Under the pieces are notes generated by a model. It was given only the letters and a program-made list of their open reading frames with translations. It made no database searches and was not told where the DNA came from. Made by a program: the position numbers and the translations under genes. A DNA stretch of 64,000 bases, from NCBI GenBank assembly GCA_944325105.1, contig CALUYW010000013.1:1-64000 (forward strand). The letters run 5' to 3'. Positions within the stretch are counted from its first letter, which is position 1; each line of letters starts with the position of its first letter. Of the stretch, positions 5,918-62,781 are shown piece after piece. Source of the stretch: Candidatus Gastranaerophilales bacterium (GTDB taxonomy: Bacteria > Cyanobacteriota > Vampirovibrionia > Gastranaerophilales > Gastranaerophilaceae).

Positions 5918-5923
5918 AGGATT

Positions 5924-5933
5924 ATTATACAAT
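5924..5933. promoter_or_regulatory. Overlapping divergent -10 boxes of bioB and the TPR gene
   Basis: The 22 bases between the divergent start codons hold TATAAT on the minus strand (5929-5924) and TACAAT on the plus strand (5928-5933). Each ends exactly six bases before its own ATG. The boxes overlap, so the two promoters should compete, and each -35 region would lie inside the other gene's coding sequence. Confidence 0.55.
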
Positions 5934-5939
5934 AAAAAT

Positions 5940-6632
5940 ATGTTTGGCATTAATATTTTTAAAGATTGGAAAAAATATTATAATAGAGCGCTTGACTACT
6001 ATAAAAAGAAAAATTACAAGAGTGCTTTAGAGCTTTTTGAGCAGGCAAAAAAACTCCAGCCGAAAAATTATAAAATCCCATATAACATGGCACTTTGCTA
6101 TCAGTATTTGGGAGAAGATTTGAAAGCACTCGAACTGTACAAAATCGCTTCTAAATTGTGCCCTGATGACCTCGATACGGTATTTAACATAGGATGTATT
6201 TTATTTTCCAAAAATAAAATAGAAGAGGCAATTGAAGAGTTTAAAAAAGTACTTGAAAAGGATGTCAAAAGCTATGATGCTAACTACGCCCTATCTATTT
6301 GTTATGCAAGTTTAGCGCAGTGGGAAAATTCTCAAAAATACTGTGAAGAGGCTCTCAGACTGCAAGAGCGATCACACAGGGCAAATAATCAAATGGGTTT
6401 GATATTTTATTCAATTGAAGATTGGGATAATGCGGTTAAATTTTTCAGAAAAGCGATAAAACTTAACCCGACACAGTTTCCAAAGTATTATTCAAATCTT
6501 GCCTTAACTTATGATAAAGTTGGCGACAATGAAAATGCTCTTAGAATTTACAATAAAATCAAGAAAAAATTTCCTGACTATCAGGGGCTTGATTTTATGA
6601 AAATGACTTTTGAAATTAAGTCGAAACCTTAA
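5940..6632 (+). CDS. TPR-repeat protein
   Basis: A 230-residue soluble protein made almost entirely of 34-residue TPR units, beginning near residue 11 (YYNRALDYYKKKNYKSALELFEQA) and repeating about five to six times with the usual W/L-G-Y-A-P pattern. No signal peptide or enzymatic domain is visible. It is probably a protein-protein scaffold with unknown partners. The ATG at 5940 is preceded by TACAAT plus six bases and no Shine-Dalgarno. Its 3' end overlaps the convergent TPR gene by 17 bases. Confidence 0.85.
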   Translation: MFGINIFKDWKKYYNRALDYYKKKNYKSALELFEQAKKLQPKNYKIPYNMALCYQYLGEDLKALELYKIASKLCPDDLDTVFNIGCILFSKNKIEEAIEEFKKVLEKDVKSYDANYALSICYASLAQWENSQKYCEEALRLQERSHRANNQMGLIFYSIEDWDNAVKFFRKAIKLNPTQFPKYYSNLALTYDKVGDNENALRIYNKIKKKFPDYQGLDFMKMTFEIKSKP

Positions 6633-8763: not shown

Positions 8764-8952
8764 ATGTTGTCAAATTTAAATGAGAAGTATCTTCTCAAGT
8801 TTATTTCAAATGAGAATAATATTATAAAATCAGACAGTGACACATTTATAAAGCTGCTTGATTCTTTTGGCGTGAAGATAAAATTTGTCAGTACAAATCC
8901 TGTGTATGATATAATCGACAACTTAGAGTATGGCGGAATTGCATATGAATAA
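8764..8952 (+). CDS. Hypothetical small protein preceding the diguanylate cyclase
   Basis: A 62-residue hydrophilic frame (MLSNLNEKYLLKFIS...) with no recognised domain. Its end overlaps the start of the CHASE2-GGDEF gene, an arrangement typical of translational coupling. Composition is protein-like (charged, Ile/Asn/Lys-rich) and it fills an otherwise long gap after the LCP gene. The upstream -10 (GAGAAT, then six bases to the ATG) is weak. It could still be non-coding leader. Confidence 0.45.
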   Translation: MLSNLNEKYLLKFISNENNIIKSDSDTFIKLLDSFGVKIKFVSTNPVYDIIDNLEYGGIAYE

Positions 8953-10741
8953 AAAGAAACAAGTTTTTGACATAGTTGTATATGTTTTGATGTTTCTTGT
9001 TGTTTTTGGTTTTTTAATTTATGCAGGCAGATTTAACGCATTTGGAAAATTTGTCGGCAGTATGGAGTTTAAAACCTTTGATATAAGGCAAAATCTTATT
9101 CTCCCCCATAAAGAAAATAACAATGATATTGTAATAATAGCGGTTGATGACCCAAGTTATGAATATATAACCGAAAAGTTTGGTACTTGGCCTGTGCCAA
9201 GAAGTTTCTGGGCAAAGCTTATTAACGGGCTTGAAGTTGCAAATCCTAAGTTTATAGCTTTTGATTTGCTTTTTACAAAAAGATTGGGTGCGCTTGATGA
9301 GGGTGATTTAAAATTAATTGAAGCGGTTAAAAATAATCAAAATGTATACCTCTCGATGAATTTTGATAATTACCCATCAACCATAAGATTAGCACCGCAA
9401 TTACCTGAGGGGCTTGAGATTAATCTTAAAAACGGAGATATTATAAAAAACAGTCCGTTTTTGCATTTTAACAATTGCAGAAAAGCTATGGATGAGCTTT
9501 TGGATGTTACTTCAAACTTTGGTTTTATCAATGTTACCCGTGATGATGACGGTATAATAAGATACATTGCCCCGATGTTTTACTATAAGGATGCTTATTA
9601 TCCAAATTTAACAACGGCAATTGCTCTAAAGTACTTAAATATTGACCCAAATAATATATATGTAAAAAATAATACTTTGTATCTTGATGCCTTGCATAAA
9701 ATTCCTCTCAATCCTGACGGCAGGGCAACTATTAACTGGTATGGCAAGGAAGGAACTTTTGAGCATGTAGGTTTATGGCAGGTTGATGATGCTATAAATC
9801 GTGGCGATACAAAGTTTTTAAAAGAAAAATTTGAAAATAAAATAATATATATCGGTACAACTGTAACAGCATTAGCTGATATTAAAAGCACTCCTGTTTC
9901 TTTTATGTACCCCGGAGTTGAAACTCACGCTACATTTTTAAACAATATTTTAGATAATAATTTTATTGTTCATTCAACCTTTAGAACTGATATTGCAATA
10001 GCTGCGATACTTTGCTTTTTAATCGGATTTTTTATTTTGAAGCTGGATTCTGTTCCATATTCAATACTATGCTGTGTTGCTATACTTATTGCTTATTTGA
10101 TAATAACAGTTCTTGCTATGGAATATTTTAATCTTTGGCTTGGCATTATTCTGCCGCTTTTTTCTTCAACGCTTATTTTTATAGCGGCGTACATTACAAA
10201 ATATTTGCTTAAATCAAAGGATTATGAACACACCTACAAGCTTGCCGTAACCGATGGTTTAACAGAGATGTATAATCACAGATACTTCCAAGAGCAAATG
10301 ATAATGAATGTAGGTAATGTCGCAAGGTACGGGGGAAATTTCTCTCTTATTTTGATTGATATAGACTTCTTTAAAAAGTTTAACGATAAACACGGACACC
10401 AAAGCGGAGATGCCGTTTTAAGACAAGTTGCTCAGACTATTAAAAAAAATGTCAGGACAAGTGACATACCTTGCCGCTACGGTGGTGAAGAAATGTCTGT
10501 AATACTTACTAATACTAAAAAAGAAGATGCAATTACAACAGCTAAGAAAATTTGGAGCGCTGTTAGAGAGCGTAAGTTTGAACTGGCAGACGGTAACTGG
10601 GCTAATGTTACCATAAGTGTTGGCGTTGCAACCATGCCTGATAATGGCAATAACCCTCAAGAGCTTATAGAGTATGCAGATAAATGCCTCTATAAGGCAA
10701 AACAAAACGGCAGAGACCAGGTGGTAAGCGAGATTGACTAA
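8945..10741 (+). CDS. CHASE2-domain membrane diguanylate cyclase (GGDEF)
   Basis: 598 residues from MNKKKQ (an ATG at 8930 would add five). One N-terminal membrane helix (about 8-26) leads into an extracytoplasmic CHASE2 sensor (about 40-345, with IVIIAVDDPS and the IIYIGTT-PGVETHA core). Three helices follow (about 350-420), then a cytoplasmic GGDEF domain. The active-site signature is RYGGEEM (GGEE at 513-516), and an inhibitory I-site RTSD sits five residues upstream at 504-507. It should make c-di-GMP from two GTP with product inhibition. The CHASE2 ligand is unknown. No EAL or HD-GYP partner is in the window; an MshEN-like protein at 57.6 kb is a possible but doubtful receptor. Confidence 0.94.
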   Translation: MNKKKQVFDIVVYVLMFLVVFGFLIYAGRFNAFGKFVGSMEFKTFDIRQNLILPHKENNNDIVIIAVDDPSYEYITEKFGTWPVPRSFWAKLINGLEVANPKFIAFDLLFTKRLGALDEGDLKLIEAVKNNQNVYLSMNFDNYPSTIRLAPQLPEGLEINLKNGDIIKNSPFLHFNNCRKAMDELLDVTSNFGFINVTRDDDGIIRYIAPMFYYKDAYYPNLTTAIALKYLNIDPNNIYVKNNTLYLDALHKIPLNPDGRATINWYGKEGTFEHVGLWQVDDAINRGDTKFLKEKFENKIIYIGTTVTALADIKSTPVSFMYPGVETHATFLNNILDNNFIVHSTFRTDIAIAAILCFLIGFFILKLDSVPYSILCCVAILIAYLIITVLAMEYFNLWLGIILPLFSSTLIFIAAYITKYLLKSKDYEHTYKLAVTDGLTEMYNHRYFQEQMIMNVGNVARYGGNFSLILIDIDFFKKFNDKHGHQSGDAVLRQVAQTIKKNVRTSDIPCRYGGEEMSVILTNTKKEDAITTAKKIWSAVRERKFELADGNWANVTISVGVATMPDNGNNPQELIEYADKCLYKAKQNGRDQVVSEID

Positions 10742-11144: not shown

Positions 11145-12464
11145 ATGATTTTATCAAGTACAATAGGTATTATCGCTGACGATTTAACCGGCGCAAATGA
11201 CACTGCTTTGCAGTTTTTCCTAAAAGGTTCAAATACCGAGATTTTACTTGATTACTCGGATGAATTGCAAAATCATGTAAATGTCGGCACTTGGGCTATT
11301 TCAACAGAATCAAGAAATATAGATAAAAATGATGCCGCAAAAATAGTCTATGATAGTGCTTTGATTTTAAAAGAAAAATTGAATGTAGAGCACTTTTATA
11401 AAAAAATAGATTCAACTCTTCGCGGTAACATTACTTATGAGATTTTTGCCGCACTTGAAGCAACGGGAAAAGACGCCGCTATTGTCGCCCCTGCTTTTGT
11501 GCAAGAGGGTAGAATTACAATAGGCGGCTATCAGCTCTCAAAAGGTGTTCCTATTGAAAGAACCGATGCCGCTCGTGACCCCGGTGCTCCTATTTATGAG
11601 TCATATGTGCCTGATATTTTAAAAAAACAGTTGGGCGATAATGCAAAAAATATGGTTGATTCAATTGAGCTAAATGTTGTGGCAAAAGGTGCCGGGCCTA
11701 TTGCTCAAAAAATAACCGAACTTGTCGAAGCTGGTAAAAAAATTATTGTTGTGGACTGTGTTTCTACGGTCGATTTTGAACAAATTGTACTTGCAATGCA
11801 AAAGTCCCCTTATGACCTTTTGCCTTGCGGTTCGGCGGGTCTTGCTCAGGCACTGGCGTCACACTGGCTTGAAGAAATTAAGGTAAATAAAGCTACAAAA
11901 AAAGTCCCGCGCTTGCCAAAACTCATTCTTTCGGGTTCTGCCACAACACTTAGTGCGCTGCAGCTGCAAAAACTGGAAAATGAAGACGACTTTTCAAATA
12001 AGTCTTATTTTCTTTGTTTGACACTAAAGGACATTATAAACGGCGTCAGTGAAAATATTGTAAGGAGAGTTTTGGATAATCTTGTTCAAGACAACATTGT
12101 CGCAGTTCATGTCTGCGGCGTACTTGAAGAGGTAAAAAACGAAGAGGGTAAAAACATTCTTATTGATGAGGGCATCACAAAAGAAGCGCTGTCAAAAAGA
12201 ATTACCAAGTATCTGGCCGAGCTTGTTTTGGAAATAAAGAAACAGGCTGAATTTATATTAATTACAATAGGCGGCGAGACCTCTCGCGCCTGCTGCAGTG
12301 CAATTGAGTCAAAATATCTGCAGGTGGCAGATGCCATTTTGCCCGCTATTCCTCTCTGTCTTGATTCAAGTGCGCAGCTTGTGGTTACAAAATCGGGCAA
12401 TTTAGGCACAACATCAACTCTTGTTGAGATTATTCAATACTTAGAGCACCACGAAAATGTATAA
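11145..12464 (+). CDS. Four-carbon acid sugar kinase family protein (DUF1537)
   Basis: 439 residues with the family's two-part structure. The N-terminal half begins GIIADDLTGANDTALQF and has KKIDSTLRGN, the sugar-acid binding core; the C-terminal ATP-binding part has LPCGSAGLAQAL, ILSGSAT and ITIGGETSRACC. Characterised relatives (DtnK, OtnK) phosphorylate D-threonate, L-threonate or erythronate at O4, and the product is oxidised by a PdxA2-type dehydrogenase. The next gene is exactly a PdxA homologue, overlapping by 8 bases, so that pairing is likely here. Substrate chirality cannot be read from the sequence. Confidence 0.88.
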   Translation: MILSSTIGIIADDLTGANDTALQFFLKGSNTEILLDYSDELQNHVNVGTWAISTESRNIDKNDAAKIVYDSALILKEKLNVEHFYKKIDSTLRGNITYEIFAALEATGKDAAIVAPAFVQEGRITIGGYQLSKGVPIERTDAARDPGAPIYESYVPDILKKQLGDNAKNMVDSIELNVVAKGAGPIAQKITELVEAGKKIIVVDCVSTVDFEQIVLAMQKSPYDLLPCGSAGLAQALASHWLEEIKVNKATKKVPRLPKLILSGSATTLSALQLQKLENEDDFSNKSYFLCLTLKDIINGVSENIVRRVLDNLVQDNIVAVHVCGVLEEVKNEEGKNILIDEGITKEALSKRITKYLAELVLEIKKQAEFILITIGGETSRACCSAIESKYLQVADAILPAIPLCLDSSAQLVVTKSGNLGTTSTLVEIIQYLEHHENV

Positions 12465-13335
12465 AATAGCCATAACAACAGGTGATATAAAGGGGATTGG
12501 CCCTGAAATTACAAAGAAAGCTTTGGATTTTTTAAATCTGCCAAAGTCTGATGTGGTTATAATAGGGCAGAAGATATCTGATATTTATGACACTATAGTT
12601 GTTGATGATTCAATAAATGGGGAATTTTGCTATAACACTTTAAAAATTGCATCAGAACTTGCTTTAGATAATAAAATAGGTGCAATAGTAACAGCACCTG
12701 TGTCAAAACTTGCACTTCTTGAAGCGGGGCATAATTTTTCGGGTCAGACAGAAGTTTTATCTACCCTTTTAAATAACGATGCCGAGATGTTATTTGTAGC
12801 GGATGACTTTAGGGTAATGCTTTTAACAAGACATCTTGCGCTCAAGGATGTAAAAATTACAAAAGAGATGATGATAGATAAAATCTCAAGACTGAATGAT
12901 TTTTTATTGAACCAATGTAGTATTAAAAATCCAAAAATTGCTCTATGTGCCCTAAACCCTCACGCAGGCGAGGGCGGGATGCTCGGCAGAGAAGAAATTG
13001 ATATTATGCTACCTGCCATAAATACTCTAAGACAAAAAGGCATAGACGTGCTAAACCCGATGAGTGCTGATGCTCTTTTTGCCAGAGTTGGTAAAAAATA
13101 TTTAAAAGGTGAAAAACAAGAGTATGACGCCGTTGTTGCCTGCTATCATGACCAGGGTTTATGTCCTGTTAAGGCGCTTTGTTTTGATAAAACGGTTAAC
13201 ACAACAATTGGTCTAAAAGTCATCCGCACTTCCCCCTCTTGTGGTACGGCGTATGATATAGCAGGAAAAAATATAGCCGACCCGACAAGCATGATAGAGG
13301 CTATTAAGCTTGCTTATAAACTTAACAAATCTTAA
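12457..13335 (+). CDS. pdxA: PdxA-family 4-phospho-hydroxy-acid dehydrogenase
   Basis: 292 residues, shorter than E. coli PdxA (329). The metal-binding His residues are kept in TRHLAL, NPHAGEGG and YHDQG, and the substrate Lys eight residues after the last one is kept (HDQGLCPVK). The usual D-H-G-T-A segment reads S-C-G-T-A (RTSPSCGTAYDIAG). The family oxidises 4-phosphohydroxy-threonine in vitamin B6 synthesis (PdxA) or 4-phospho-threonate/erythronate in catabolism (PdxA2). The coupled DUF1537 kinase favours the catabolic role; no pdxJ is present to support B6 synthesis. The symbol is a family label only. Confidence 0.87.
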   Translation: MYKIAITTGDIKGIGPEITKKALDFLNLPKSDVVIIGQKISDIYDTIVVDDSINGEFCYNTLKIASELALDNKIGAIVTAPVSKLALLEAGHNFSGQTEVLSTLLNNDAEMLFVADDFRVMLLTRHLALKDVKITKEMMIDKISRLNDFLLNQCSIKNPKIALCALNPHAGEGGMLGREEIDIMLPAINTLRQKGIDVLNPMSADALFARVGKKYLKGEKQEYDAVVACYHDQGLCPVKALCFDKTVNTTIGLKVIRTSPSCGTAYDIAGKNIADPTSMIEAIKLAYKLNKS

Positions 13336-17304: not shown

Positions 17305-17820
17305 ATGGAAGATATAAAAAAGATGATTAGGGATGTTCCCGATTTCCCTAAAAAAGGTATAATTTTTCGCGATATTACTACGGCTATAAAAGACGCTAAA
17401 ACAATGCAGAAAATAGTTGACCTTATGGCTCAAGAATACGCGGATGAAAAAATTGATTATGTTGCAGGCATTGAGTCTCGCGGTTTTATTTTTGGCATGC
17501 CAATAGCATACAAATTAGGCTGCGGTTTTATTCCCATAAGAAAACCGGGTAAACTCCCTGCTGAAACTATTTCTCAGGAATACAGTCTTGAATACGGCAC
17601 AGATAAAATAGAAATCCATAAAGACGCCATTAAAAAAGGCGATAGAGTTCTTATAGTAGATGACTTGCTTGCTACAGGCGGAACAGCTGCAGCTGCAGCT
17701 AAGCTTGTAAGCTCAACAGGTGAGCTTGTCGGTATTTCTTTCTTAATCGAATTGGAAGATTTAAAAGGAAGAGAAAAACTGCCTGCGGGTGTTAAAGTTT
17801 CATCTCTTGTAAAATACTAA
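17305..17820 (+). CDS. apt: Adenine phosphoribosyltransferase
   Basis: A 171-residue cytosolic salvage enzyme converting adenine and PRPP to AMP. Seen: the N-terminal [19 protein letters not shown] typical of Apt, base-site loop [19 protein letters not shown], and the PRPP-binding [14 protein letters not shown]. Length is typical. The start has TAGGAG nine bases upstream and a leader of about 30 bases after a TAGAAT, in contrast to the neighbouring flhB. Confidence 0.97.
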
Positions 17821-17843
17821 AAATCCCTTATAAAAATATAGGG

Positions 17844-17849
17844 TATAAT
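17844..17849 (+). promoter_or_regulatory. -10 box of flhB (leaderless type)
   Basis: TATAAT followed by six bases (TAAACT) and the flhB ATG at 17856. No Shine-Dalgarno and no clear -35. Confidence 0.5.
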
Positions 17850-17855
17850 TAAACT

Positions 17856-18959
17856 ATGGCTGATGAAGATAAGCAGTTTGAGGCTTCGCAGCAGAAGCTC
17901 AATAAGGCACGAAAAGAAGGTCAGGTCGTAAAGTCGAAAGACTTTTCGGTTGCGATTGGTCTTGTTGTGATGTTCAGCGGAATTTATGCCCTATCGCCTT
18001 TTATCTGGTCACAGATATCGGGACTTTTTACGCTTATTTACGAGCAGATACCTGAAGCTCATGTAGAACAAATAGGCTACGCGTATCTGCTATTTAGGAC
18101 ACTTGTACCTGCTGTTTTAATTATTGGGCCTATTCTTGCGCTTGCTTGGTTTGTTGGCATTATGGGAGACTTAATACAGGTGGGGCCTCTATTTACCATG
18201 ACTCCTCTTGCTCCAAAGTTTGACAAGCTCAACCCTACAAAATATTTTAAAAACCTTATGAGTCCAAAGACTCTTTTCGAGCTTGTTAAAAATATAGTAA
18301 AAGTAGCAATTTTAGGGATTGTAGGGTATGTGGTTTATATGGAGCATTTCCCCGATATTATTATGCTTGCTGCAATAGATAACCAGTTTGCGGTTCTAAT
18401 ACAGTTTGGTAAGTTGGTTGTAGATTTTGTGGTTAAAGCAACAATTGCCTTTTTGATAATCGCTGCGGCAGATTACGGTGTTACAAAGTGGAAATTTTTA
18501 CAAGACCAGAAAATGTCTTTTAAAGAGGTAAAAGATGAATACAAAAACACTGAAGGTGACCCGCATGTAAAAGCTGCACTAAGGCAAAGACGTCAGCAGC
18601 TTTTACAAAAAAAGATGATGGATGCCGTGCCTGATGCTGATTTTGTTGTAACTAACCCGACACACATTGCCTGTGCTCTTAAATATGACCAAAAAACAAT
18701 GCAATCACCCCGTCTTGTAGCTAAAGGTACAGAGCTTTTTGCAAAGAAAATAAGGGAAATAGCAGAGCTCCATGGTGTTCCTGTTATAGAAAATCCTCCC
18801 GTTGCCCGCGCGATATTCAGATTTGTTGATATAGACAGAGAAATTCCGCCCGATTTATACAAAGCGGTAGCTGAAATTCTTATATTTGTTTATAACCTTA
18901 AAAAGAAAAAAGCGCAAAATCTTAATATTGATAATTCTAATCCTACAGATAAAGTGTAA
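17856..18959 (+). CDS. flhB: FlhB-family type III export gate protein
   Basis: 367 residues. The N-terminus FEASQQKLNKARKEGQVVKSKDF is the conserved FlhB/SctU cytoplasmic start. Four membrane helices lie at about 31-50, 80-105, 145-165 and 185-210. The linker and autocleaving C-domain follow, with the N-P-T-H site at residues 267-270, as in flagellar FlhB. It switches export specificity from rod/hook to filament substrates. No other flagellar or injectisome gene is adjacent. The C-terminal tail is Lys-rich then Asn/Asp-rich. Flagellar rather than injectisome assignment is by similarity only. Confidence 0.93.
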   Translation: MADEDKQFEASQQKLNKARKEGQVVKSKDFSVAIGLVVMFSGIYALSPFIWSQISGLFTLIYEQIPEAHVEQIGYAYLLFRTLVPAVLIIGPILALAWFVGIMGDLIQVGPLFTMTPLAPKFDKLNPTKYFKNLMSPKTLFELVKNIVKVAILGIVGYVVYMEHFPDIIMLAAIDNQFAVLIQFGKLVVDFVVKATIAFLIIAAADYGVTKWKFLQDQKMSFKEVKDEYKNTEGDPHVKAALRQRRQQLLQKKMMDAVPDADFVVTNPTHIACALKYDQKTMQSPRLVAKGTELFAKKIREIAELHGVPVIENPPVARAIFRFVDIDREIPPDLYKAVAEILIFVYNLKKKKAQNLNIDNSNPTDKV

Positions 18960-19017
18960 TGTTTGCATTTAAAAGCAAAAGATAGTAAAATTTTTTTATA
19001 GAATTGTATATGGGAAA

Positions 19018-19695
19018 ATGGCTTCAACATTGCAATCAAATCTTAGTGATTACATAGATATAATTCAGAAAGTAGCACGGGTAGAATACAGGCGTATACC
19101 ATCGCATATGGTGGAGTGTGAGGAGCTTGTATCTATTGGTATTATTGCTATTCAAGCGTTAATAAAAAATAAAACCCCCGAGCAGCTTCAAAGATATAAC
19201 ACCTCCTACATCGCAACCGCGGTAAGGTGGGCAATTCGTAACGAGCTTAGAAACCGCTACAAGTGGTACACCTTAAAACACAAACGCGAAGAGGGTGAAG
19301 AAGAGGAATACGGTTCATCAGCAAATGACAACTCGAGTCTTGATGTTTCCCCGACAAAAGTTCGTGAAGCCATCTATGAAACCATACTTTCAATAGACTC
19401 GATTGCATCAGCATCTTCGGATAACGATTCTCCTTTTGATTTTATTAAGGATAATTCTGCAACTCCTGATGAAAAAGCTGAGATAAGCGAGTTAGGGAAA
19501 ATTATAAGAGAAGCCATTGCAACACTTCCGCAAAAAGACAGAACTATTGTGGAGTATAGATTTTACAGAAACATGCAGGTAAAACAAATTGCCGCGCAGG
19601 TTGGTTTATCAAGTTCAAGAATAACGCGTATAGTGCAAAGCAGTCTTAATACAGTTAGGGAGTATTTGCAAAAACGCGGTCTTACAAGTTATTAG
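19018..19695 (+). CDS. Sigma-70 family RNA polymerase sigma factor (SigF/FliA/SigB-like group)
   Basis: 225 residues. Region 2 is recognisable (VECEELVSIGIIAIQALI then YIATAVRWAIRNELRNRYKW), with a degraded, acidic region 3 (EEGEEEEYGSSANDNSS). Region 4 is LPQKDRTIVEYRFYRNMQVKQIAAQVGLSSSRITRIVQ. Short group 3/4 sigma factors of this type include FliA (motility) and stress sigmas. Position 58 bases after flhB suggests a link to motility or export genes, but promoter specificity cannot be read. No anti-sigma gene is adjacent. Confidence 0.88.
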   Translation: MASTLQSNLSDYIDIIQKVARVEYRRIPSHMVECEELVSIGIIAIQALIKNKTPEQLQRYNTSYIATAVRWAIRNELRNRYKWYTLKHKREEGEEEEYGSSANDNSSLDVSPTKVREAIYETILSIDSIASASSDNDSPFDFIKDNSATPDEKAEISELGKIIREAIATLPQKDRTIVEYRFYRNMQVKQIAAQVGLSSSRITRIVQSSLNTVREYLQKRGLTSY

Positions 19696-19720
19696 TAATG
19701 CTACGTAAATGAAAGGTTAA

Positions 19721-21613
19721 ATGATGTTGTGCAAAGATACCCCCGCATTATCGCAAGAATATAAAACTGCGGTTGCAGACGCTCTAAGGGTTTTAGATAA
19801 GAAAAATCTCGCCCTTATACTCCATGGTGTGAGTTTCCCCTCTTCTTTAGGTGAAAATACAGGTTTTGGTACATATAACTCAGACGGTGCAAAAAGAGTT
19901 TTTGATTTTATGCAAGGTATTTTTAGTGCACTTCAACTTGGCCCTGCAGGCAAAACAAAAATGTCCGACCCTTCTCCATACTGCGGTACGGTTTTTTCAA
20001 AAAATCCTCTTTTTATAAATTTAAAAGAACTGACAACAGGTGAATGGGAACATCTTTTAAGCGAAGCAACATTAGAAAATATAGTTGAAAATAACCCGAC
20101 AAAAGGTACAAACAGAGCTTCTTACGTTTATGCAATTCAAAGATGTGATGCTGCTATGAAAGAAGTTTATGAAAACTTTAAGAAAAAAGCCTCTTGGGGT
20201 TTAAAAAGAAAATTTGATAAATTTAAAAAAGAAAATGCTTACTGGCTGGATAATGATGCTTTATACGAAGCATTTTGTATAGAAAACGATTCAGACTACT
20301 GGCCTCAGTGGCAAAGCGAACTGGATAGAACTCTATTTGGCTCTGCAGATAAAAAAGAAGCTAAAAAAAGAATAGAAGAAATTTCTAAAAAATATAAGGA
20401 TGTAATAGAAAAATACAAGCTTGAGCAGTTTGTTGTAGCCCTTCAAGGCGAAAAGACTCTTGAATACGCTAAAGAACGTAATATAAAACTCATTGCAGAC
20501 AGACAGGTTGCGTTTTCCGACCGTGATAACTGGGCATATCAAGCACTGTTTAAAGACGGCTGGTCACTTGGCTGCCCTCCTGATTATTTCTCAAAAGACG
20601 GTCAGGCATGGGGCTTTAGTGTTGTTGACCCTGAAAAACTCTTTAATAAAGACGGTTCGCTTGGCCCTGCCGGAGAATTGCTTTTCAAATTGTATTTAAA
20701 AATGTTTAATGAAAACCCGGGCGGTGTTAGAATTGACCACACTGTAGGACTTATTGACCCGTGGGTATACAAACAAGGTTCACTTCCAAAAGTTGAAGAG
20801 GGTGCAGGCAGACTGTACTCTTCACCTCAGCATGAAGAACTTAAAAAGTATTCCATAGCAACTATGGAAGATGTAAACAATGAATTTGACCCTGATGAAG
20901 AAAAATGGATAAAACAGCTAAGTGATGAGCAAATCAAGCGCTATGGCGCTATGATAGAAAAAATCGTTATTGCATCCGCTCAAAAAGCAGGATTGGATAA
21001 AGACGCTATTGTTGCGGAGGACTTGGGTACCCTTACATATCCTGTAGAGAAAGTTATGGAAAAATACGGCTTGCAAGGTATGAAACTTGTTCAGTTTGTA
21101 GTAGCTGAAGAAGAAGACCACCCTTACCGTTGCAAAAATATTGTTCCGAATTCTTGGGCTATGGTTGGAACTCATGACAATGAGCCTATCAGAATGTGGG
21201 CGTCACAAATGGTAAATACTGATAAAATGCACCCGCATGTAAGAAACCTTATGGAAGATTTATTCAGAGAATTTGATAATCAGGATGAAATTCGACATAA
21301 ACTCTACACTGATGAAAAATTCCTTGCTTTTGCAAAACTTGTAGAGATTTTTGCTTCTCCTGCGCAAAATCTTCAAATATTCTTTACTGATTTCTTTGGA
21401 ATTAATGAAGTTTACAATAAGCCAGGTACATCAGGCGACCCTAACTGGACTTTAAGGCTTCCTGATAATTTTGAAGAATTTTATGCACAAAAAGTAAGTT
21501 CAGGCGACGCCTTAAATCTTCCTCTTGCCTTAATTTATGCTATAAAAGCGCGCGGAAGAGATTTTGCAAATCAAAATTCAGAACTAATTTCACGACTTGA
21601 AAAACTGGTATAA
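19721..21613 (+). CDS. malQ: 4-alpha-glucanotransferase (GH77)
   Basis: 630 residues, longer than the typical ~500 because of an inserted charged helical region (about residues 135-235, Lys/Glu-rich). The GH77 core is intact: LHGVSFPSSLG near the start, LIADRQVAF, the nucleophile Asp in GGVRIDHTVG, the acid/base Glu in IVAEDLGT, and the third acid in VGTHDNEP. It transfers alpha-1,4-glucan segments, in maltodextrin or glycogen metabolism, fitting the glgA in the window. Shine-Dalgarno GAAAGG precedes the start. The metallophosphoesterase gene begins one base after the stop. Confidence 0.95.
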   Translation: MMLCKDTPALSQEYKTAVADALRVLDKKNLALILHGVSFPSSLGENTGFGTYNSDGAKRVFDFMQGIFSALQLGPAGKTKMSDPSPYCGTVFSKNPLFINLKELTTGEWEHLLSEATLENIVENNPTKGTNRASYVYAIQRCDAAMKEVYENFKKKASWGLKRKFDKFKKENAYWLDNDALYEAFCIENDSDYWPQWQSELDRTLFGSADKKEAKKRIEEISKKYKDVIEKYKLEQFVVALQGEKTLEYAKERNIKLIADRQVAFSDRDNWAYQALFKDGWSLGCPPDYFSKDGQAWGFSVVDPEKLFNKDGSLGPAGELLFKLYLKMFNENPGGVRIDHTVGLIDPWVYKQGSLPKVEEGAGRLYSSPQHEELKKYSIATMEDVNNEFDPDEEKWIKQLSDEQIKRYGAMIEKIVIASAQKAGLDKDAIVAEDLGTLTYPVEKVMEKYGLQGMKLVQFVVAEEEDHPYRCKNIVPNSWAMVGTHDNEPIRMWASQMVNTDKMHPHVRNLMEDLFREFDNQDEIRHKLYTDEKFLAFAKLVEIFASPAQNLQIFFTDFFGINEVYNKPGTSGDPNWTLRLPDNFEEFYAQKVSSGDALNLPLALIYAIKARGRDFANQNSELISRLEKLV

Positions 21614-54881: not shown

Positions 54882-56993
54882 ATGGCTAGAAATATTAGGA
54901 AAAAACAAACAAAAAGAGGGGTTAAGAAGAGAAACTTTTTTCTCTATTTTTGCATGATGGTGTTCTCTGCTTTTCTTGCAGCAGTTGCAGCATTTAATCT
55001 TTATTTGGCGTCTTTGCCCCCTATATCAAACTTTGACGATATTAAACCAAACCCTGTTACAAGTATCTACTCTCTTGACGGTGAGGTAATAAAGACTTTT
55101 ACGGTATTTAGATTTGAAAAGGTTTCGATAGATGAAATCCCTGCAAAGCTTAAAAACGCCGTTATTGCAACGGAGGATAAAAATTTCTATAAGCACAGAG
55201 GTTTTGACACACTTGGTCTTGTGCGCTCTGTTTTTGCAAACATAAAGGCAGGTTCTTTGAAGCAGGGTGCAAGTACGATTACTCAACAGTTGGCAAGGAT
55301 TTTGTTCTTGTCTAATGAGAGAACTTTTGACAGGAAAATAAAAGAGTTAATAATCGCTCACAGGATTGAAAAAACAATCTCTAAAAATGAAATACTTGAG
55401 TTGTATCTGAATTCTGTTTATTTAGGCTCTGGCACATACGGTGTTCAAAGTGCTTCAAAAACTTACTTTGATAAGGAATTAAGCGAACTGACTCTTGCTG
55501 AGGCTGCTCTTATTGCAGGTTTGCCTCAGGCACCCAGCGTTTATTCGCCTTTCCAAAATCCTGATGCTGCAATGAATAGGCGCAATCAAGTACTAAAGAG
55601 AATGTATAAAACAGGCTACATTACAAAAGATGAATATAAAGCCGCGCTTGATGAAGAGCTGCACCTGAGCAAAAAACCCAGGCTGTATTCCTTTAACAAA
55701 GCTCCTTATTTTATAGATTTAGTCTTAAATGAGCTTGAAAAACTTGGTTTTGAAGAGCAGGAAATTTCTCAAGGTGGTTTAAAAATTTATACAACTCTTG
55801 ATTTAAAATCTCAAAACGCAGCACAAGATGCTATTGTAAACGACCTTAATGCTTACGGCTTAAGGTCTAAAAAAACTCAAATGGCTTTATTTTCTTTTTC
55901 GCCCACGACTGGTAGAATTTATGCTTACGTTGGCGGTAAAAACTATGAAGAAAGTCAGTACGACAGAATTACAAACGCAATAAGACCTCCGGGCTCTGCT
56001 TTTAAGCCTTTTGTTTATACGGCTGCTTTGCAGCAGGGTGTTGGAGTGGATGATATTATTGATGATTCCCCTATTTCATTTAAAAACTGGTCACCAAGAA
56101 ACTACGGTAATAAATACAGGGGCAAAATGCCCATCTGGAAAGCACTTGCTATTTCATCAAACGTGGCTGCAGTCAGGCTCATAAAAAAAACGGGCGCTGA
56201 TGCAGTTATTGCAACTGCAAGAGAAATGGGCATAACAACACCTTTACAAAATGACCTTACTATTGCTCTTGGCTCAAACGGCGTAAAGCTTTACGATATG
56301 GTTGTAGCATACGGTGCTTTTGCAAACGGCGGGTTTAGAGTTCGCCCTTATGCGGTCGAAAGAGTTGAGAACTCTCGCGGTGTTGTAATCTATGAAAATT
56401 CGGGGCCAAAAATCGTTAAAGTTATAAGTTTTGATACCGCTGCAGGTATGACCTATATGCTAAGAAAAGTAGTCGAAGCCGGCACGGGTCGTGCAGCAAA
56501 TATTTCCAAGGCAACAGCCGGTAAAACGGGTACAACAGATGATTATAGAGATGCTTGGTTTGTAGGTTATACCCCTGATATTGTAACAGGTGTTTGGCTG
56601 GGAAATGACGATAACTCAAAGCTTCCCGGTATAACAGGAGGAGGCTTGCCTGCTAAAGTTTGGGCAGATTATATGAGGGTTGCAATAACAAATTTTGCGG
56701 ATTCTGTTTTTGATTATCCTAAGTTAAACGGTTCTGAAGAGTCAAAGCCAAAAGAGATAACAGATACTGAAGAAAATCAAAAAGATGACGAAGAGTTGCT
56801 GGAGGGCTTTGATACAGATGAACAAAGTACTCAAGTTCAAAATCAAAATACCCCTAATACACCTGCAACAGAAGCGCCAAAGAGTGAAGAGAAGGCTGAG
56901 ATTCAAAAGCCAAAAAGACCTTTTAGTACTAACGAGCCCCCTGTGCCACAAAGTGCTCCACTCCCTCAGGCGGCACCACTGCCGGGTGCTTAA
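54882..56993 (+). CDS. Class A penicillin-binding protein (PBP1A type)
   Basis: 703 residues. A basic cytoplasmic tail and one membrane helix (about 20-43) precede the GT51 glycosyltransferase (ATEDKNFYKHRG at 96-107 with the catalytic Glu; GASTITQQLARI). The transpeptidase domain has S372-x-x-K375 (GSAFK), S-S-N at 425-427 and K-T-G-T at 548-551. It polymerises and cross-links peptidoglycan. The C-terminal 90 residues are low-complexity, Glu/Gln/Pro-rich. Overlaps bioD tail to tail by four bases. Confidence 0.96.
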   Translation: MARNIRKKQTKRGVKKRNFFLYFCMMVFSAFLAAVAAFNLYLASLPPISNFDDIKPNPVTSIYSLDGEVIKTFTVFRFEKVSIDEIPAKLKNAVIATEDKNFYKHRGFDTLGLVRSVFANIKAGSLKQGASTITQQLARILFLSNERTFDRKIKELIIAHRIEKTISKNEILELYLNSVYLGSGTYGVQSASKTYFDKELSELTLAEAALIAGLPQAPSVYSPFQNPDAAMNRRNQVLKRMYKTGYITKDEYKAALDEELHLSKKPRLYSFNKAPYFIDLVLNELEKLGFEEQEISQGGLKIYTTLDLKSQNAAQDAIVNDLNAYGLRSKKTQMALFSFSPTTGRIYAYVGGKNYEESQYDRITNAIRPPGSAFKPFVYTAALQQGVGVDDIIDDSPISFKNWSPRNYGNKYRGKMPIWKALAISSNVAAVRLIKKTGADAVIATAREMGITTPLQNDLTIALGSNGVKLYDMVVAYGAFANGGFRVRPYAVERVENSRGVVIYENSGPKIVKVISFDTAAGMTYMLRKVVEAGTGRAANISKATAGKTGTTDDYRDAWFVGYTPDIVTGVWLGNDDNSKLPGITGGGLPAKVWADYMRVAITNFADSVFDYPKLNGSEESKPKEITDTEENQKDDEELLEGFDTDEQSTQVQNQNTPNTPATEAPKSEEKAEIQKPKRPFSTNEPPVPQSAPLPQAAPLPGA

Positions 56994-57628
56994 GATAAAA
57001 TTGAAGCAAGTTTTGTAAAGTCTGTTTGTCCTTGGTATATGATATCAAGGACTTTTATATCGCAAAAACTTTCAATCATCTCTTTTGCTCTTAAAATTAC
57101 AGGGTCTTTTGTTTGATTAGGATAATTGGAAATAACTATACCTATAATTTCTACACCCTTGTTTTTCAGGCATTCAATACTCATCAAAGTGTGGTTAATT
57201 GTTCCTAAGTTTGGCCTTGCAACTAAAAGTGTCGGCAGATTGAGGTATTTAATTACATCAATCATAAGCACATCTTTTTTTGTCGGCACATAAAGCCCGC
57301 CTGAACCCTCAACCATTGTTATATCGGAGTTTTTGGACAATTCTAAGTAATCTTTTTTTACAACTTCAAGGTCATATTCAACTCCGTCAATTTCAGAACT
57401 TATTAAAGGAGTAGCGGGAGTTTTTGTAATATAAGTGCTTTTTGTAATGACATCTTCTGAAGTCTTTTTTACCTGAAGTGCGTCAGAGTCAATGTTTTCT
57501 TCAATGCCGCTTTGAAAAGGTTTTAGATAAGACACTTTTTTGCCGTTTTTTACAAATGTCTTTGCAAGATATCTGCAAACGTAACTTTTGCCGACATCTG
57601 TGTCAGTTCCCGCTACAAAGAAATTCAT
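56990..57628 (-). CDS. bioD: Dethiobiotin synthetase
   Basis: 212 residues. P-loop FVAGTDTDVGKSYVCRYL, KPFQSGIE and VEGSGGLYVP are diagnostic. Forms dethiobiotin from DAPA, CO2 and ATP, the step before BioB. Its start overlaps the end of the secretion-ATPase-like gene by four bases, so it is the last gene of the histidine kinase operon, a surprising context. Confidence 0.95.
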   Translation of the reverse strand: MNFFVAGTDTDVGKSYVCRYLAKTFVKNGKKVSYLKPFQSGIEENIDSDALQVKKTSEDVITKSTYITKTPATPLISSEIDGVEYDLEVVKKDYLELSKNSDITMVEGSGGLYVPTKKDVLMIDVIKYLNLPTLLVARPNLGTINHTLMSIECLKNKGVEIIGIVISNYPNQTKDPVILRAKEMIESFCDIKVLDIIYQGQTDFTKLASILS

Positions 57629-59016
57629 ACCAGATATTTCTCCAATTCTTCTTTATCAAAAAATTCAATACTGTCTTTGTTATGTATAAAAATAAGGCAT
57701 GATATAACCGATTTAAACATGGAAAATTCGCTAAATTCAAATTTTCTTCTTAAATCTCCCATATTATCTGCCAGAAATTCAGTAATAAGAGTTTTGTTTT
57801 TAAGAGTTAGTGATGTGAAAAAGTCCAGCCCCTCTTTTGTTGAAATACCTTCAAAGTATATGATATCAGGGCTTTGAAACTCAATAAATCTCATTGCTTT
57901 ATCAAGGTTAAAACCGATGTTTTCATTAAGCTCGCACTGTGATACGTTGCTTAGTTTGTATTTAGCGATTGATTCAAGTGACATAACAGTTTTGTTTTTT
58001 GGTATTATGCCTGATGATAAAATCGAATAAATAAGGTGTGTTTTACCGCTCAGTGATGAGCCGCAGATTAGCACAACCCCCGGTTTATTGAGGTTTTCAC
58101 TGAGTATATTTATTTTATCGGGAGATATGCCAAGTTCTGTGAGTTTTTTTGGCGGGTGATAAATTTTAAGAGAAATTCTCTCGCCGTTAATTGTCGGAAA
58201 CGCAGAAATGCTCGCGGTTAGTTCACAGTTGTCAACATTAAAATTAAGTTTGCCAAGCTGCGGTATTTCATACACATTTGGGTCAAGCCCGCAGAGAGTT
58301 TTTAAAATTTGTATAAAAGGATTTATTAAAAGCTCAGGGATTGAACCTGTTAAATACACTTCTTGAGGTTTTTTGAAAAATACACTTAAACCCTCTTGAG
58401 TTGATTCAAAGTAGAGCTCATGCACCCCTTGAATAATAGCGTGTTTTAAAATCGCCCTAAATAATGACCTTATGTGCTCTTCGCTTATATCTTCACTGTG
58501 CAGTTCGTCTTGCCAGTGGAAATTTTTGTTTTTTTCAAGGTTAATATCTTGAACTTTACCTTTTGTTTCATAGTATTCGTTAATCTTTTTTAGAATACTT
58601 TTTTCGCTTGAAATAATAGGGTCAATATTTTTGCCTGTTCTTTCAATTATTTTATCTATTGCAAACAAATCAAGAGGGTCTGCCATAGCAACAGAGAGCG
58701 TATCTTCGATTAGAAAAAGAGGAAGAATTTTATAGCTCATTGCCTCTTGATAGCTGATAAGATTTAAACATTTTTTATCTATTTCGTAATCTTCAAGATT
58801 AACTGATGGTATATGAAGTTTTTCTTGAAGAAATTCAAGAAGCTTTTCTTCACTGATAAGAGAAGAAGAAATTAAAACCTGACCTATGTTTGTATTTTGA
58901 GCATTAGCCATCTCGCTTGCTTTTTCAAGGTCTTCAAAAGTTACAAGATTATCTCTTACAAGGTCGTATTTAAGTTTATCAATTGTTTTATTATCTACTT
59001 TTGTATCGGAATACAT
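57625..59016 (-). CDS. Divergent GspE/PilB-like ATPase with MshEN-type N-domain
   Basis: 463 residues. The N-terminal ~150 (NIGQVLISSSLISEEKLLEFLQEK, ILPLFLIEDTLSVAMADPLD) matches the MshEN/T2SSE_N domain of PilB-type ATPases, but the c-di-GMP motif R-L-G-x-x-L-x-x-x-G is changed (N-I-G, S-S-S). AFPTINGERISLKIY (272-286) aligns with the conserved TLPTxxGERxxLRIL, and Walker A is GSSLSGKT (319-326). The Walker B G-E-I-R-D is replaced by YFEGISTKEG, the His box by LITEFLADN, and the four-Cys C-module is missing. Probably not a working pilus motor. Shares one base with the response regulator upstream. Confidence 0.78.
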   Translation of the reverse strand: MYSDTKVDNKTIDKLKYDLVRDNLVTFEDLEKASEMANAQNTNIGQVLISSSLISEEKLLEFLQEKLHIPSVNLEDYEIDKKCLNLISYQEAMSYKILPLFLIEDTLSVAMADPLDLFAIDKIIERTGKNIDPIISSEKSILKKINEYYETKGKVQDINLEKNKNFHWQDELHSEDISEEHIRSLFRAILKHAIIQGVHELYFESTQEGLSVFFKKPQEVYLTGSIPELLINPFIQILKTLCGLDPNVYEIPQLGKLNFNVDNCELTASISAFPTINGERISLKIYHPPKKLTELGISPDKINILSENLNKPGVVLICGSSLSGKTHLIYSILSSGIIPKNKTVMSLESIAKYKLSNVSQCELNENIGFNLDKAMRFIEFQSPDIIYFEGISTKEGLDFFTSLTLKNKTLITEFLADNMGDLRRKFEFSEFSMFKSVISCLIFIHNKDSIEFFDKEELEKYLV

Positions 59017-59378
59017 TATTTTATATACCTGTTAATTGCTTCAACTATGTCATTAAACTCAAAGGGTTTTGTAATATATTCATCTGCCCCTGTTTCTTCG
59101 CCGATTTCTTTGTCTTCTTCCTGACTTCTTGCAGTTACCATAATTATCGGGATATTTTTGTACTTGCTGTCATATTTCAAAAGACGACAGATTTTGTACC
59201 CGTTAATTTTTGGCATCATAACATCAAGAATGATTAAATCGGGAGAACATTCTTTTGCAAGTTTTAGACCCTCTTCGCCATCATAAGCGCAAATACACTC
59301 AAAACCTTTTGCTTTTAGCATAAAAGCAAGGGTTTCTACAATATCTCTTTCATCATCAACTATTAAAATCTTTTTCAT
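59016..59378 (-). CDS. Single-domain response regulator (CheY-like)
   Basis: 120 residues, receiver domain only: acidic pair in LIVDDERD, phospho-Asp in LIILDVMMPKINGY, Thr in MVTAR, Lys in ITKPFEF. No output domain, so it must act by protein contact; the overlapping ATPase-like protein downstream is the obvious candidate. Shine-Dalgarno AAGGAAG. Cognate kinase 21 bases upstream. Confidence 0.95.
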   Translation of the reverse strand: MKKILIVDDERDIVETLAFMLKAKGFECICAYDGEEGLKLAKECSPDLIILDVMMPKINGYKICRLLKYDSKYKNIPIIMVTARSQEEDKEIGEETGADEYITKPFEFNDIVEAINRYIK

Positions 59379-59399
59379 TTTACTTCCTTTTAGGTGTGG

Positions 59400-61421
59400 C
59401 TATAAATCTATCTTGTTTAAAATTTTTAAAAGCTCTTTACCGTCTTGATTTGAAGATGCCTTTTTTAATACTATAGCACATTTTTCCCACTCGGGCTTTT
59501 GTGATTCTTGTATTATTGATTTTTGCATAAAATCAAGAGCGCTTTGCGACGTGTCGGGTAAAAGTACAAAATAATCGTTGTCTTTTTTGTATTCTTTAGA
59601 TTTTTTTGTGAGTTTAATAAGTTTTTGCTCGCAAATATGCACAATAAAACCGCAAGAGGGGTTTTCTTTTATGTGTAAAATCGCTGTTTCTTCGCTACTT
59701 GACAGAGCATGGTTAATATCCATGATAAATATTTTTTTATCATCCAAAACGGGAATAAAGAAGGAGAAATCAGAGCCTTTATTTTCTTCGCTTATAACGC
59801 TTATTGCTCCAAGATGCGCATCAAGAAGCTCTTTTGTAATAGAAAGTCCGAGCCCTACCCCGCCTATGTTTCTTGTAAGGGAGTTTTCAATTTGCGAGAA
59901 TTTTTCAAATATTTTTGGAATATTTTCTTTTTTAATACCTATACCTGTATCGATAACTGAAATTTTTATATATTTGCCTTGAATTTTTTGTATGGGAGAA
60001 ATAAGATTTTCTGTATCAATTTCACCCTCTTCAACTGTTTTTGCAATTATTTTTATGCTGCCGTCTTTTGGTGTAAACTTAAGCGCATTTGAAACAAGGT
60101 TTGATATAATCTGCTCAATCCTGTGAGTATCTGCATAGACATCAGGTAGATTATTTTTAATTTCAAGAGATACGTTGATGTTTTTTTCCCCCGATACTTG
60201 CTCAAAAGTTTTTTGAATAAGTTCAAGTGATGGAGTAAGATTTGTAATTTTATATTTAAAATCAAGCTTGCCTGTTTGAACTCTTGATAAGTCAAGCAAG
60301 TCCTCAATAATGCCCGATAGTCTTGAGACATTTCTTTTTGCCATGTTAATAAAGTTTCTGGCATCTTGCGATATTTCGCCTGTTTGACCGCTTAAAACTA
60401 TCTCAAGCGAGTTGTTAATAGGGGTAAGCGGAGTTCTAAGTTCATGAGATACTATAGATACAAAATCAGACTTTAGTCTTTCAAGTTTTTCAAGTTTTAT
60501 GTTGGTGTTCTTAATTTCTTCATATAATGTCGCACTCCTTAGCGGCAGTGCTACCTGATGAACTATGGATTGAAAACATGTGACATCTTCTTTTGTAAAA
60601 GGGGTGCTTCTAAAAAGTTCAATTACTCCAAAGAAGTGCTCACCTACTTTTATCGGAGCAAAAAGACTATCGTAGTTTAAAATTCTTAAATCAAAAATAT
60701 TTTGAATATGAGAGGGTTTTACATTTTGAATAATTTCCATGCCTTCAAGATTTATATTGTATGGCAGAGGCTGATTTTCAAAAAGATTTTTATACTCAAG
60801 CCCCACTCTTAGAGCCAGAGCTTTTTTAAGGCTTTCCGTAGGTTCATAAAGCGAATTAATATAGAACTTGCTTTCTCCCTCCATGCCAAAAACAAGCGCT
60901 GATGAGATATCAAAGCTTAGAGTTTTTTCAAGAGATTCAAGCATGATGTTATAGAGTTTGTTTTTATCAAGAGTGCCTGCAAACTGGGAGCTTGTGTTGT
61001 AGAGCACATTTAGTTGATACAAGCTTCTTGCAAGTTCCCTGTTGTTTTCATTTAGCTGCTCAAGAGATTTTTTTATTTTTATGTGTGAATTAATAGTGTG
61101 AATTAAAATGTTTTTACATACAGGAGTTGTTACAAAGCCGTCGGCAAAGTTTAGAAAATCAATATCTTTGCCTTTTTCAAGCAAGAGCAACACTTGTGTG
61201 TTTTGCTGAATTGTTTTTGATTTTATTTGCTTGGTTAAAATCTCACAGTCATTATATTTTGTATCAATCAGAACTATATCAGGATTATAAAGCTCAATCT
61301 GAGAAAGTATGTTCTCAGGTGTTTTTTCGCTTAAGATACACTCGCTCTCAGAGTTTGTAAGAGTGTATATTATATCTTTGCTAAATTCCGATAATTCTGA
61401 TATGAGTAAAATTTTAGACAT
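59400..61421 (-). CDS. Soluble sensor histidine kinase (receiver-like, GAF, HisKA, HATPase)
   Basis: 673 residues, no membrane segment. N-terminal 1-115 is receiver-like with Asp53 (IVLIDT) but no acidic pair and no conserved Lys (TTPV), so likely a pseudoreceiver. A GAF-type sensor spans about 145-295. HisKA has the phospho-His326 (VSHELRTP); HATPase_c has N445 (NLVSNALKFTP), DTGIG at 491-495 and GVGLGLSI. The last ~110 residues form an unrecognised extra domain. It heads the kinase-regulator-ATPase-bioD operon and its ATG follows TAAAAT plus six bases. Confidence 0.93.
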   Translation of the reverse strand: MSKILLISELSEFSKDIIYTLTNSESECILSEKTPENILSQIELYNPDIVLIDTKYNDCEILTKQIKSKTIQQNTQVLLLLEKGKDIDFLNFADGFVTTPVCKNILIHTINSHIKIKKSLEQLNENNRELARSLYQLNVLYNTSSQFAGTLDKNKLYNIMLESLEKTLSFDISSALVFGMEGESKFYINSLYEPTESLKKALALRVGLEYKNLFENQPLPYNINLEGMEIIQNVKPSHIQNIFDLRILNYDSLFAPIKVGEHFFGVIELFRSTPFTKEDVTCFQSIVHQVALPLRSATLYEEIKNTNIKLEKLERLKSDFVSIVSHELRTPLTPINNSLEIVLSGQTGEISQDARNFINMAKRNVSRLSGIIEDLLDLSRVQTGKLDFKYKITNLTPSLELIQKTFEQVSGEKNINVSLEIKNNLPDVYADTHRIEQIISNLVSNALKFTPKDGSIKIIAKTVEEGEIDTENLISPIQKIQGKYIKISVIDTGIGIKKENIPKIFEKFSQIENSLTRNIGGVGLGLSITKELLDAHLGAISVISEENKGSDFSFFIPVLDDKKIFIMDINHALSSSEETAILHIKENPSCGFIVHICEQKLIKLTKKSKEYKKDNDYFVLLPDTSQSALDFMQKSIIQESQKPEWEKCAIVLKKASSNQDGKELLKILNKIDL

Positions 61422-61467: not shown

Positions 61468-62781
61468 TTAGTAATCCCTTTTTAAAAACTCTATAAGCTC
61501 TTTTGAGTTTTTGATATTGTTTTTAAGTACAACATCGGCTATACACATGCCATGCTCAAGTAGTGAAAAAGCACAATTTAAGTAGTGTTTTTCTTCTTGA
61601 GGGAGATTTTGTTTTGCAATTTCAAAGAGTTTTTTTGTAAAGTCTTTTGCGCTAAAGTTTTTGTATTTAAAATTTGTTCCGTACCTTGCTGCAAGAAAGC
61701 CCATGATTTCTATGTCATTGGTATTTATATCTTTAAAATAGCTTAAAATCTCATTGTAATCGCTGTTTAAAATACCTTTGTAAAAAGCGCATACGGATAG
61801 AGCAAAAGGCAGATTTTGACTATCATGGTTTCTTATTTCAATGCATTTTTTAAGTCTTATGTCAGGGAAGCAAAGACTTGAGTGCAATATGTAGTCTTCA
61901 AGAGTGGCAAAATGCTCCTGATATCCGTTTTTCATAAAATCGTAAAAATTTATCTCTCCGTTTATCGGTATTTTTTTACCTTCTCTTTCTATAAAGAGCA
62001 TGGGCACATCCAAAATCGCATTTATATAATCGTCAAATGTGGCGTTTTTTTTATCCAATAGGTTTTTATAAAAAAGCCCGCATCTGTCTTTGCCCGTATA
62101 TTTCCAAGCAAAAGCTCTAAAACTTTTAAAGCCTGATAGGTTATTGTTTCTTATTGGAGAATTAGCATAAAAACCTGTTAAAAAAGGTGAGATAAAAGAA
62201 AGAAGTTTTATTTTTTCAATAGCGTCATCTTCGCTTTTATAATCCACATTTAGCTGCACACCTGCTGTTTCTCTCATCATTACAGGGGCAAGTTTTGCGC
62301 GCTTTGGCAGATATTCTGCCATAATTTCATATCTTTGTTTTTTTACTATATTTATATTTTCGTAAGTTGAATATGGTGTTATCCCGCAGTTTAGAAATTC
62401 TACATTGTAAAATTTTGCAATTCTTTGAGTAAGTGAAAAAATCTCTTTTGCACTTTTTTCAATATCTGCTATATTCTCTTTTGCCTCAAGGCTAAGTTCA
62501 AACTGACACCCGGGCTCAAGTGAAACCGATGAACCCTCGCCAAGCGCCCCTATTATAGTTTTGTCATCATATAAAACACCCCAACCTTTCATGTGCGAAA
62601 AGTTTTTTATGATTTTTTCCATATAATCATAACTTGCGTTTTTATATGTAGTCGAATCTATGGCAATTTTTTCATACTCAAGGCCATACATGCTTTTTTG
62701 TTTGCATGAACTTTGATAATAATCTCTAATTTGTGTAAAATTTAGTTTATTTAAGGTTTTTGAGTTTTTGTAATTTAGCAT
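61468..62781 (-). CDS. gshA: Glutamate-cysteine ligase (GCS2/plant type)
   Basis: 437 residues. Diagnostic of the GCS2 fold used by plants, alphaproteobacteria and some cyanobacteria: YGLEYEKIAID, GALGEGSSVSLEPGCQFELSL, CGITPYSTYENI, MRETAGVQLNVDYKSEDDAIEKI, CIEIRNHDSQ. It makes gamma-glutamylcysteine, the first step to glutathione. gshB is not in the window. The ATG follows TAAAAT plus six bases. Divergent from rsmA. Confidence 0.88.
   Translation of the reverse strand: MLNYKNSKTLNKLNFTQIRDYYQSSCKQKSMYGLEYEKIAIDSTTYKNASYDYMEKIIKNFSHMKGWGVLYDDKTIIGALGEGSSVSLEPGCQFELSLEAKENIADIEKSAKEIFSLTQRIAKFYNVEFLNCGITPYSTYENINIVKKQRYEIMAEYLPKRAKLAPVMMRETAGVQLNVDYKSEDDAIEKIKLLSFISPFLTGFYANSPIRNNNLSGFKSFRAFAWKYTGKDRCGLFYKNLLDKKNATFDDYINAILDVPMLFIEREGKKIPINGEINFYDFMKNGYQEHFATLEDYILHSSLCFPDIRLKKCIEIRNHDSQNLPFALSVCAFYKGILNSDYNEILSYFKDINTNDIEIMGFLAARYGTNFKYKNFSAKDFTKKLFEIAKQNLPQEEKHYLNCAFSLLEHGMCIADVVLKNNIKNSKELIEFLKRDY

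Follow-up and report, generated by a model that had tools for sequence, protein, structure and literature searches.

A conserved histidine kinase, receiver and PilB-like gene module of Gastranaerophilales with a possible role in type IV pilus control

In a 64,000-nucleotide window of contig CALUYW010000013.1 (GCA_944325105.1), from a Candidatus Gastranaerophilales bacterium, genes for a histidine kinase (HK), a lone receiver-type response regulator (REC) and a PilB-like ATPase homologue lie in close succession and are followed by bioD. The locus raises the question of which of these genes form a unit and what a receiver without an output domain would act on. All coordinates given here are positions in this window. 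A first-pass annotation of the DNA had described four overlapping or nearly abutting genes, and the gap of 21 bases and the overlaps of 1 and 4 bases between them were found again at the same positions. The meaningful unit is the HK-REC-PilB-like triplet at window 57625-61421 on the minus strand.

59400..61421, minus strand: histidine kinase (HK), 673 amino acids (aa)
59016..59378, minus strand: response regulator (REC), 120 aa, 21-base gap to HK
57625..59016, minus strand: PilB-like gene, 463 aa, 1-base overlap with REC (TAATG)

Distribution of the three-gene module

Orthologues of the PilB-like protein were counted in an even draw of genomes from the phylum, with a match at 1e-70 as the criterion. 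The protein is present in 129 of 131 Gastranaerophilales genomes (~98%) and in none of the sampled phylum genomes outside the order; the sampled genomes of the order are very largely metagenome-assembled genomes (MAGs). A class-wide genome draw gives the same distribution. The window protein finds orthologues in 54/57 genomes of the order in a separate sample, and the remaining three hold a distant PilB-type match only. The one search made beyond the phylum was a contig scan, and its best 80 matches were titled Gastranaerophilales/Cyanobacteria or unclassified MAG.

REC directly adjoins the PilB-like gene in 44 of the 50 assessable loci among 53 from the order, and HK lies upstream in most. 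Across 80 named loci, REC adjoins the PilB-like gene wherever the contig leaves room; the apparent non-adjacent locus L098 was rejected as an artefact of the open-reading-frame start, as shown by L043 of the same species. The same HK-REC-PilB-like order is seen from family to family within Gastranaerophilales amid flanking genes that vary by genus, which indicates that the gene order is more than chance. REC and the PilB-like gene remain 1 base or near zero apart throughout the order despite these varying flanks. An arrangement unique to this genome, or a PilB-like gene placed in a pilus cluster in relatives, would have spoken against the functional link first proposed between the kinase, the receiver and the ATPase-like gene; the module is order-wide, the PilB-like gene sits outside a pilus cluster in relatives, and the link is upheld by the recurring three-gene order.

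Where this order is broken, all three genes are kept in the genomes checked. HK and REC are together with the PilB-like gene apart in five genomes (G046, G055, G049, G052 and G035), and families f2/f3 have the HK-REC pair on one contig and the PilB-like gene on another. HK has left in G015 and G023, where REC and the PilB-like gene stay together. In three loci of family f3 (L068, L069, L080), the PilB-like gene has glmS on one side and atpD-atpC on the other, and HK-REC is on another contig. Genome G043 carries two complete modules (L066 and L067); its bin is 7% contaminated and one of them may be foreign.

A conserved PilB-like protein with altered motor residues

57625..59016, minus strand: PilB-like domains, MshEN 9-152, N2D 179-288 and truncated P-loop domain 289-463
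58561..58992, minus strand: MshEN domain, the best-conserved part of the protein across the order
58039..58062, minus strand: Walker A GSSLSGKT, residues 319-326, kept in ~50/54 family members
57838..57873, minus strand: Walker B region, residues 382-393, in an alignment of 54 sequences

The window protein scores above cut-off for PF05157 (MshEN) and PF00437 (T2SSE), and both are found in 36/36 family members. Its structure model (pLDDT 83.7) has the PilB fold, with a Z of 24.0 to 5tsh_E over 282 residues at 3.0 Å, and the MshEN domain is recognised in the model with a Z of about 15. Nonsynonymous divergence (dN) was compared within the genus over seven neighbouring genes, dN being the safer measure because synonymous divergence (dS) is saturated in most pairs. 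REC (mean 0.034) and the PilB-like gene (0.054) have the lowest values of the seven, followed by the PBP gene (0.088), rsmA (0.123), HK (0.137), the GCS gene (0.209) and bioD (0.211). Purifying selection on the PilB-like gene is strong, and the initial description of a decayed ATPase is rejected on these values.

The other half of that description, a non-motor MshEN/P-loop protein, is borne out by the loss of the catalytic Glu, the His box, the Arg-finger position and the C-terminal part. The position of the Walker B catalytic Glu reads Gly in 32 of the 54 sequences, Glu in 14 and other residues in the rest, and the Gly before it is replaced by E389, which is invariant (54/54). The His-box position has no His (Leu in 35, and others), and the Arg-finger position is Ser in 39 and Ile in 7. 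The T2SSE profile is matched over 5-216 of 370 positions, compared with 3-370 for the PilB of the same genome. Walker A is lost in family f6 and in L070; in family f6 (L081, L082, L083) the P-loop is gone, and MshEN and the adjoining HK and REC are kept. An active but atypical motor, relying on the invariant Glu389 and Glu348 and driving a pilus or secretion machine of its own, would fit the widely retained Walker A and the invariance of E348, E389 and K352 in the family. Such a motor is very improbable given the variable catalytic Glu position, the missing His-box residue, the Ser at the Arg-finger position, the early end of the profile match and the two P-loop losses, and neither a platform gene nor a secretin of its own lies beside the PilB-like gene. 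Judged by its residues, the protein is a conserved non-motor, referred to below as pseudo-PilB; it probably still binds nucleotide in most species without a normal motor cycle.

Mean pairwise identity across the order is 57-60% in MshEN, compared with 46-49% in the ATPase domains. PilB homologues show the reverse, with N1D the most diverse part (PMC11656802). MshEN domains that bind cyclic di-GMP (c-di-GMP) carry two RLGxx(L/V/I)(L/V/I)xxG...LxxxLxxQ motifs (PMC5013675). Pseudo-PilB departs from this motif, with most contact residues swapped for family-specific conserved ones: the Arg positions are K16 (50/54) and N43 (47/54), and the Gln positions are A37 (45/54) and K66 (46/54). Imperfect MshEN motifs can still bind c-di-GMP (PMC5013675). 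The genome encodes at least six strong GGDEF matches, so the loss of the contacts does not stem from missing synthesis genes, and c-di-GMP synthesis in this genome is likely on the strength of these matches. One of them, encoded at window 8930-10741, is a CHASE2-like sensor protein whose GGDEF domain carries GGEEM.

The kinase and the receiver

59400..61421, minus strand: HK layout, receiver-like fold 1-115, coil, GAF-like 146-296, HisKA 317-384 (H326), HATPase_c 431-558 and poorly conserved C-terminal tail 561-673
61077..61421, minus strand: N-terminal receiver-like domain of HK, acceptor Asp and acidic pocket unconserved

HK matches the HisKA and HATPase_c profiles and, weakly, GAF. Its boxes SHELRTP, NLxxNAxKFT, DxGIGI and GGxGLGL are invariant or nearly so across the family, leaving the H, N and G boxes intact, and the fold matches of its model are to the kinase core and to receivers. 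The modelled N-terminus matches receiver domains with a Z of about 18 and a root-mean-square deviation of 1.6-1.9 Å. PF00072 is matched there in 14/23 family members and by the window protein not at all at E<=1. This domain is probably a pseudo-receiver, since neither its acceptor nor its acidic residues are conserved. The C-terminal tail (window 59403-59741) is 25% conserved and absent in several species. In some relatives it ends in SxYPxDxxTxEEL, which resembles a GGDEF C-terminus, and 2/23 members match PF00990 weakly; the tail may be a degenerate GGDEF domain.

REC was correctly described at first pass as a lone receiver, with 120 aa, the Response_reg profile only and no output domain. 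Residues D8, D9, D52, T82 and K104 are present in 100% of 45 sequences. Mean identity across the order is 72%, with 85-86% in alpha3 and alpha4 and 41% in alpha5, the REC family alone having been examined for this pattern. Covariation was calculated from 105 HK/REC/PilB-like triplets with an effective sequence number (Neff) of 70. On the REC side, the strongest HK-REC pairs involve alpha1 (14, 16, 22) and 108, the region through which receivers usually dock onto their kinases. The HK DHp domain is over-represented, holding 10/25 of the top HK-REC pairs against about 2 expected, although the pairs are not independent. This pattern of sequence covariation is consistent with a cognate pair and lends the HK-REC pairing indirect support.

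Possible action on the type IV pilus

The secretin-pilB-pilC block of the genome is on contig C5, apart from the module, and two PilT-like ATPases are also encoded. We favour, tentatively and at somewhat less than an even chance, the reading that HK, REC and pseudo-PilB form a dedicated signalling module that acts on the type IV pilus. We infer phosphotransfer, the binding of REC to pseudo-PilB and the pilus as target, the latter two by analogy with known systems. The soluble HK, with its pseudo-receiver and GAF input, would autophosphorylate on H326 and pass the phosphate to D52 of REC. Because REC has no output domain, it would act through direct binding to a partner, and its phosphorylation state would be read most probably by MshEN of the neighbouring pseudo-PilB. 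Pseudo-PilB would then act in trans on the pilus machine (PilB, PilC, the two PilT-like ATPases and the secretin); it might, for instance, join PilB at the platform or take its place there. A narrower version, an order-specific phospho-switch in which HK and REC control a dedicated pseudo-PilB that enters the pilus motor or caps it, is rather unlikely.

This proposal has counterparts among known systems. The extension ATPases PilB, GspE and MshE share the MshEN, N2D and P-loop order and the fold; they differ from pseudo-PilB, which lacks the catalytic Glu, the His box, the Arg-finger position, the C-terminal part and most c-di-GMP contacts. TfpB and PilU are ATPases with standard motifs. They too are second ATPase homologues thought to modulate the main motor (PMC11656802), but they are not in a kinase-receiver operon, and orthology to pseudo-PilB is not claimed. 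A known parallel to REC on a PilB-type ATPase is EmvR of Xanthomonas oryzae pv. oryzicola, a PilB-binding single-domain regulator that has the kinase ColS upstream and inhibits the ATPase activity of PilB (PMC11973254). The target of EmvR is a working PilB, whereas here it would be a separate paralogue without catalytic residues, and here kinase, receiver and paralogue share one conserved gene block. In the same phylum, the PATAN-REC proteins PixE, PixG and LsiR of Synechocystis are phospho-receivers that act on the pilus motor (PMC7690835, PMC12288463), and both PilB1 and PilC are interaction partners of PATAN regulators (PMC12288463). The module described here has no PATAN domain, and no report of a dedicated pseudo-PilB was found for Synechocystis. 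Bd2402 of Bdellovibrio, an MshEN-containing response regulator, likewise ties response-regulator signalling to MshEN (PMC5013675); it combines both parts in one c-di-GMP-binding protein, unlike the separate proteins and degenerate motif found here.

Several observations weigh against a pilus module. The genes that flank the triplet are mostly housekeeping and no pilus gene recurs among them; at the loci examined, the PilB-like gene is not encoded with pilus genes and its flanks are unrelated. REC-PilB-like covariation is weaker than that of HK-REC, with a domain spread near background and no domain singled out. Co-loss, which could have been strong support, gives no help: four genomes (G003, G207, G264 and G304) are without all three genes, but G003 is also without bioD and G207 without the copy of flhB found beside the triad in its genus, so missing contigs can account for the absences and they were not counted. 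The relay could then be real and its output not the pilus, with pseudo-PilB turned over to another process, such as polysaccharide export, flagella or the control of transcription, as its scaffold or regulator. This is an unlikely reading, though one that would explain why the gene is never beside pilus genes except for two PilT neighbours, why family f6 loses the whole P-loop yet keeps MshEN, and why two genera have an flhB-sigma block next to the triad, in different orders; PilB of M. xanthus is also reported to be an intermediary in the signalling that controls exopolysaccharide (PMC5544727). Its difficulties are that fold and domain order are still those of PilB, that pilus machine genes are present in nearly all genomes checked, and that the flhB neighbourhood, spotted post hoc, concerns 2 of dozens of genera.

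A different objection grants that HK and REC are cognate and treats the PilB-like gene as a mere co-transcribed neighbour, REC acting elsewhere, for instance shuttling phosphate or serving as a sink for it. The genome holds about 20 receiver domains, HK and REC remain together in f2/f3 when the PilB-like gene has moved off, and covariation favours HK-REC over REC-PilB-like. This account is nonetheless improbable, since it is REC and the PilB-like gene that stay together in G015 and G023 when HK leaves, that hold their 1-base or near-zero spacing order-wide amid varying flanks, and that share the lowest dN.

The remaining genes around the triplet do not belong to the conserved module:

56990..57628, minus strand: bioD, dethiobiotin synthetase, 212 aa, 4-base overlap with the PilB-like gene
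61468..62781, minus strand: GCS2-family glutamate-cysteine ligase, ends 46 bp upstream of HK
54882-56993: PBP gene, convergent to bioD, 4-base overlap with bioD

BioD matches TIGR00347 above cut-off (155.6 bits versus 83.3). A functional tie, by which the module would sense or control biotin or CO2/ATP status as the first-pass annotation had speculated, could draw on the overlap with the PilB-like gene in the home genus and on the adjacency of bioD to the module in L102 and L125. It is strongly disfavoured, to the point of being barely credible, by the distribution: bioD follows the module only in the home genus and those two loci and is sited elsewhere in most other genera, and it evolves much faster than REC and the PilB-like gene. 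BioD is a bystander, a local neighbour of the module, and a role for it is dropped. BioB is at window 5009-5950 beside ruvA and a glycogen-synthase-like gene, 51 kb away; the biotin genes of this genome are scattered. Only in the home genus and g44 is the GCS2 gene next to the module; since it lies just upstream of HK on the same strand, the transcription unit may begin further upstream. A promoter and terminator scan gave the same counts as in shuffles.

Other observations concern neighbours. The flhB-sigma block adjoins the module in g43 (L237, L238) and g13 (L051), on opposite sides, and in the window apt, flhB, a sigma-70-family factor and a 4-alpha-glucanotransferase-like gene follow in series at 17305-21613. 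PilT lies near the module in two loci, a post hoc hint, and genes near the module in L045, L048 and L052 encode prepilin-like N-termini (FTLAEVLITLxIIGVVAALTIP). Judged by eye, two overlapping genes at window 11145-13335 resemble a DUF1537-type four-carbon acid sugar kinase and a PdxA-like dehydrogenase.

Little is known of regulation in Gastranaerophilales, non-photosynthetic cyanobacteria that live in the gut; no description of this module was found in the open-access literature searched. If the pilus reading is true, the module adds a phospho-switched pseudo-motor to the ways of controlling type IV pili and bears on the open question of why bacteria keep extra PilB homologues (PMC11656802). 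If the narrower phospho-switch holds, extension would be set by a catalytically dead paralogue and not by c-di-GMP or direct inhibition of PilB. Present in nearly all sampled genomes of the order and in none elsewhere in the phylum sample, the module is a candidate core regulator of Gastranaerophilales.

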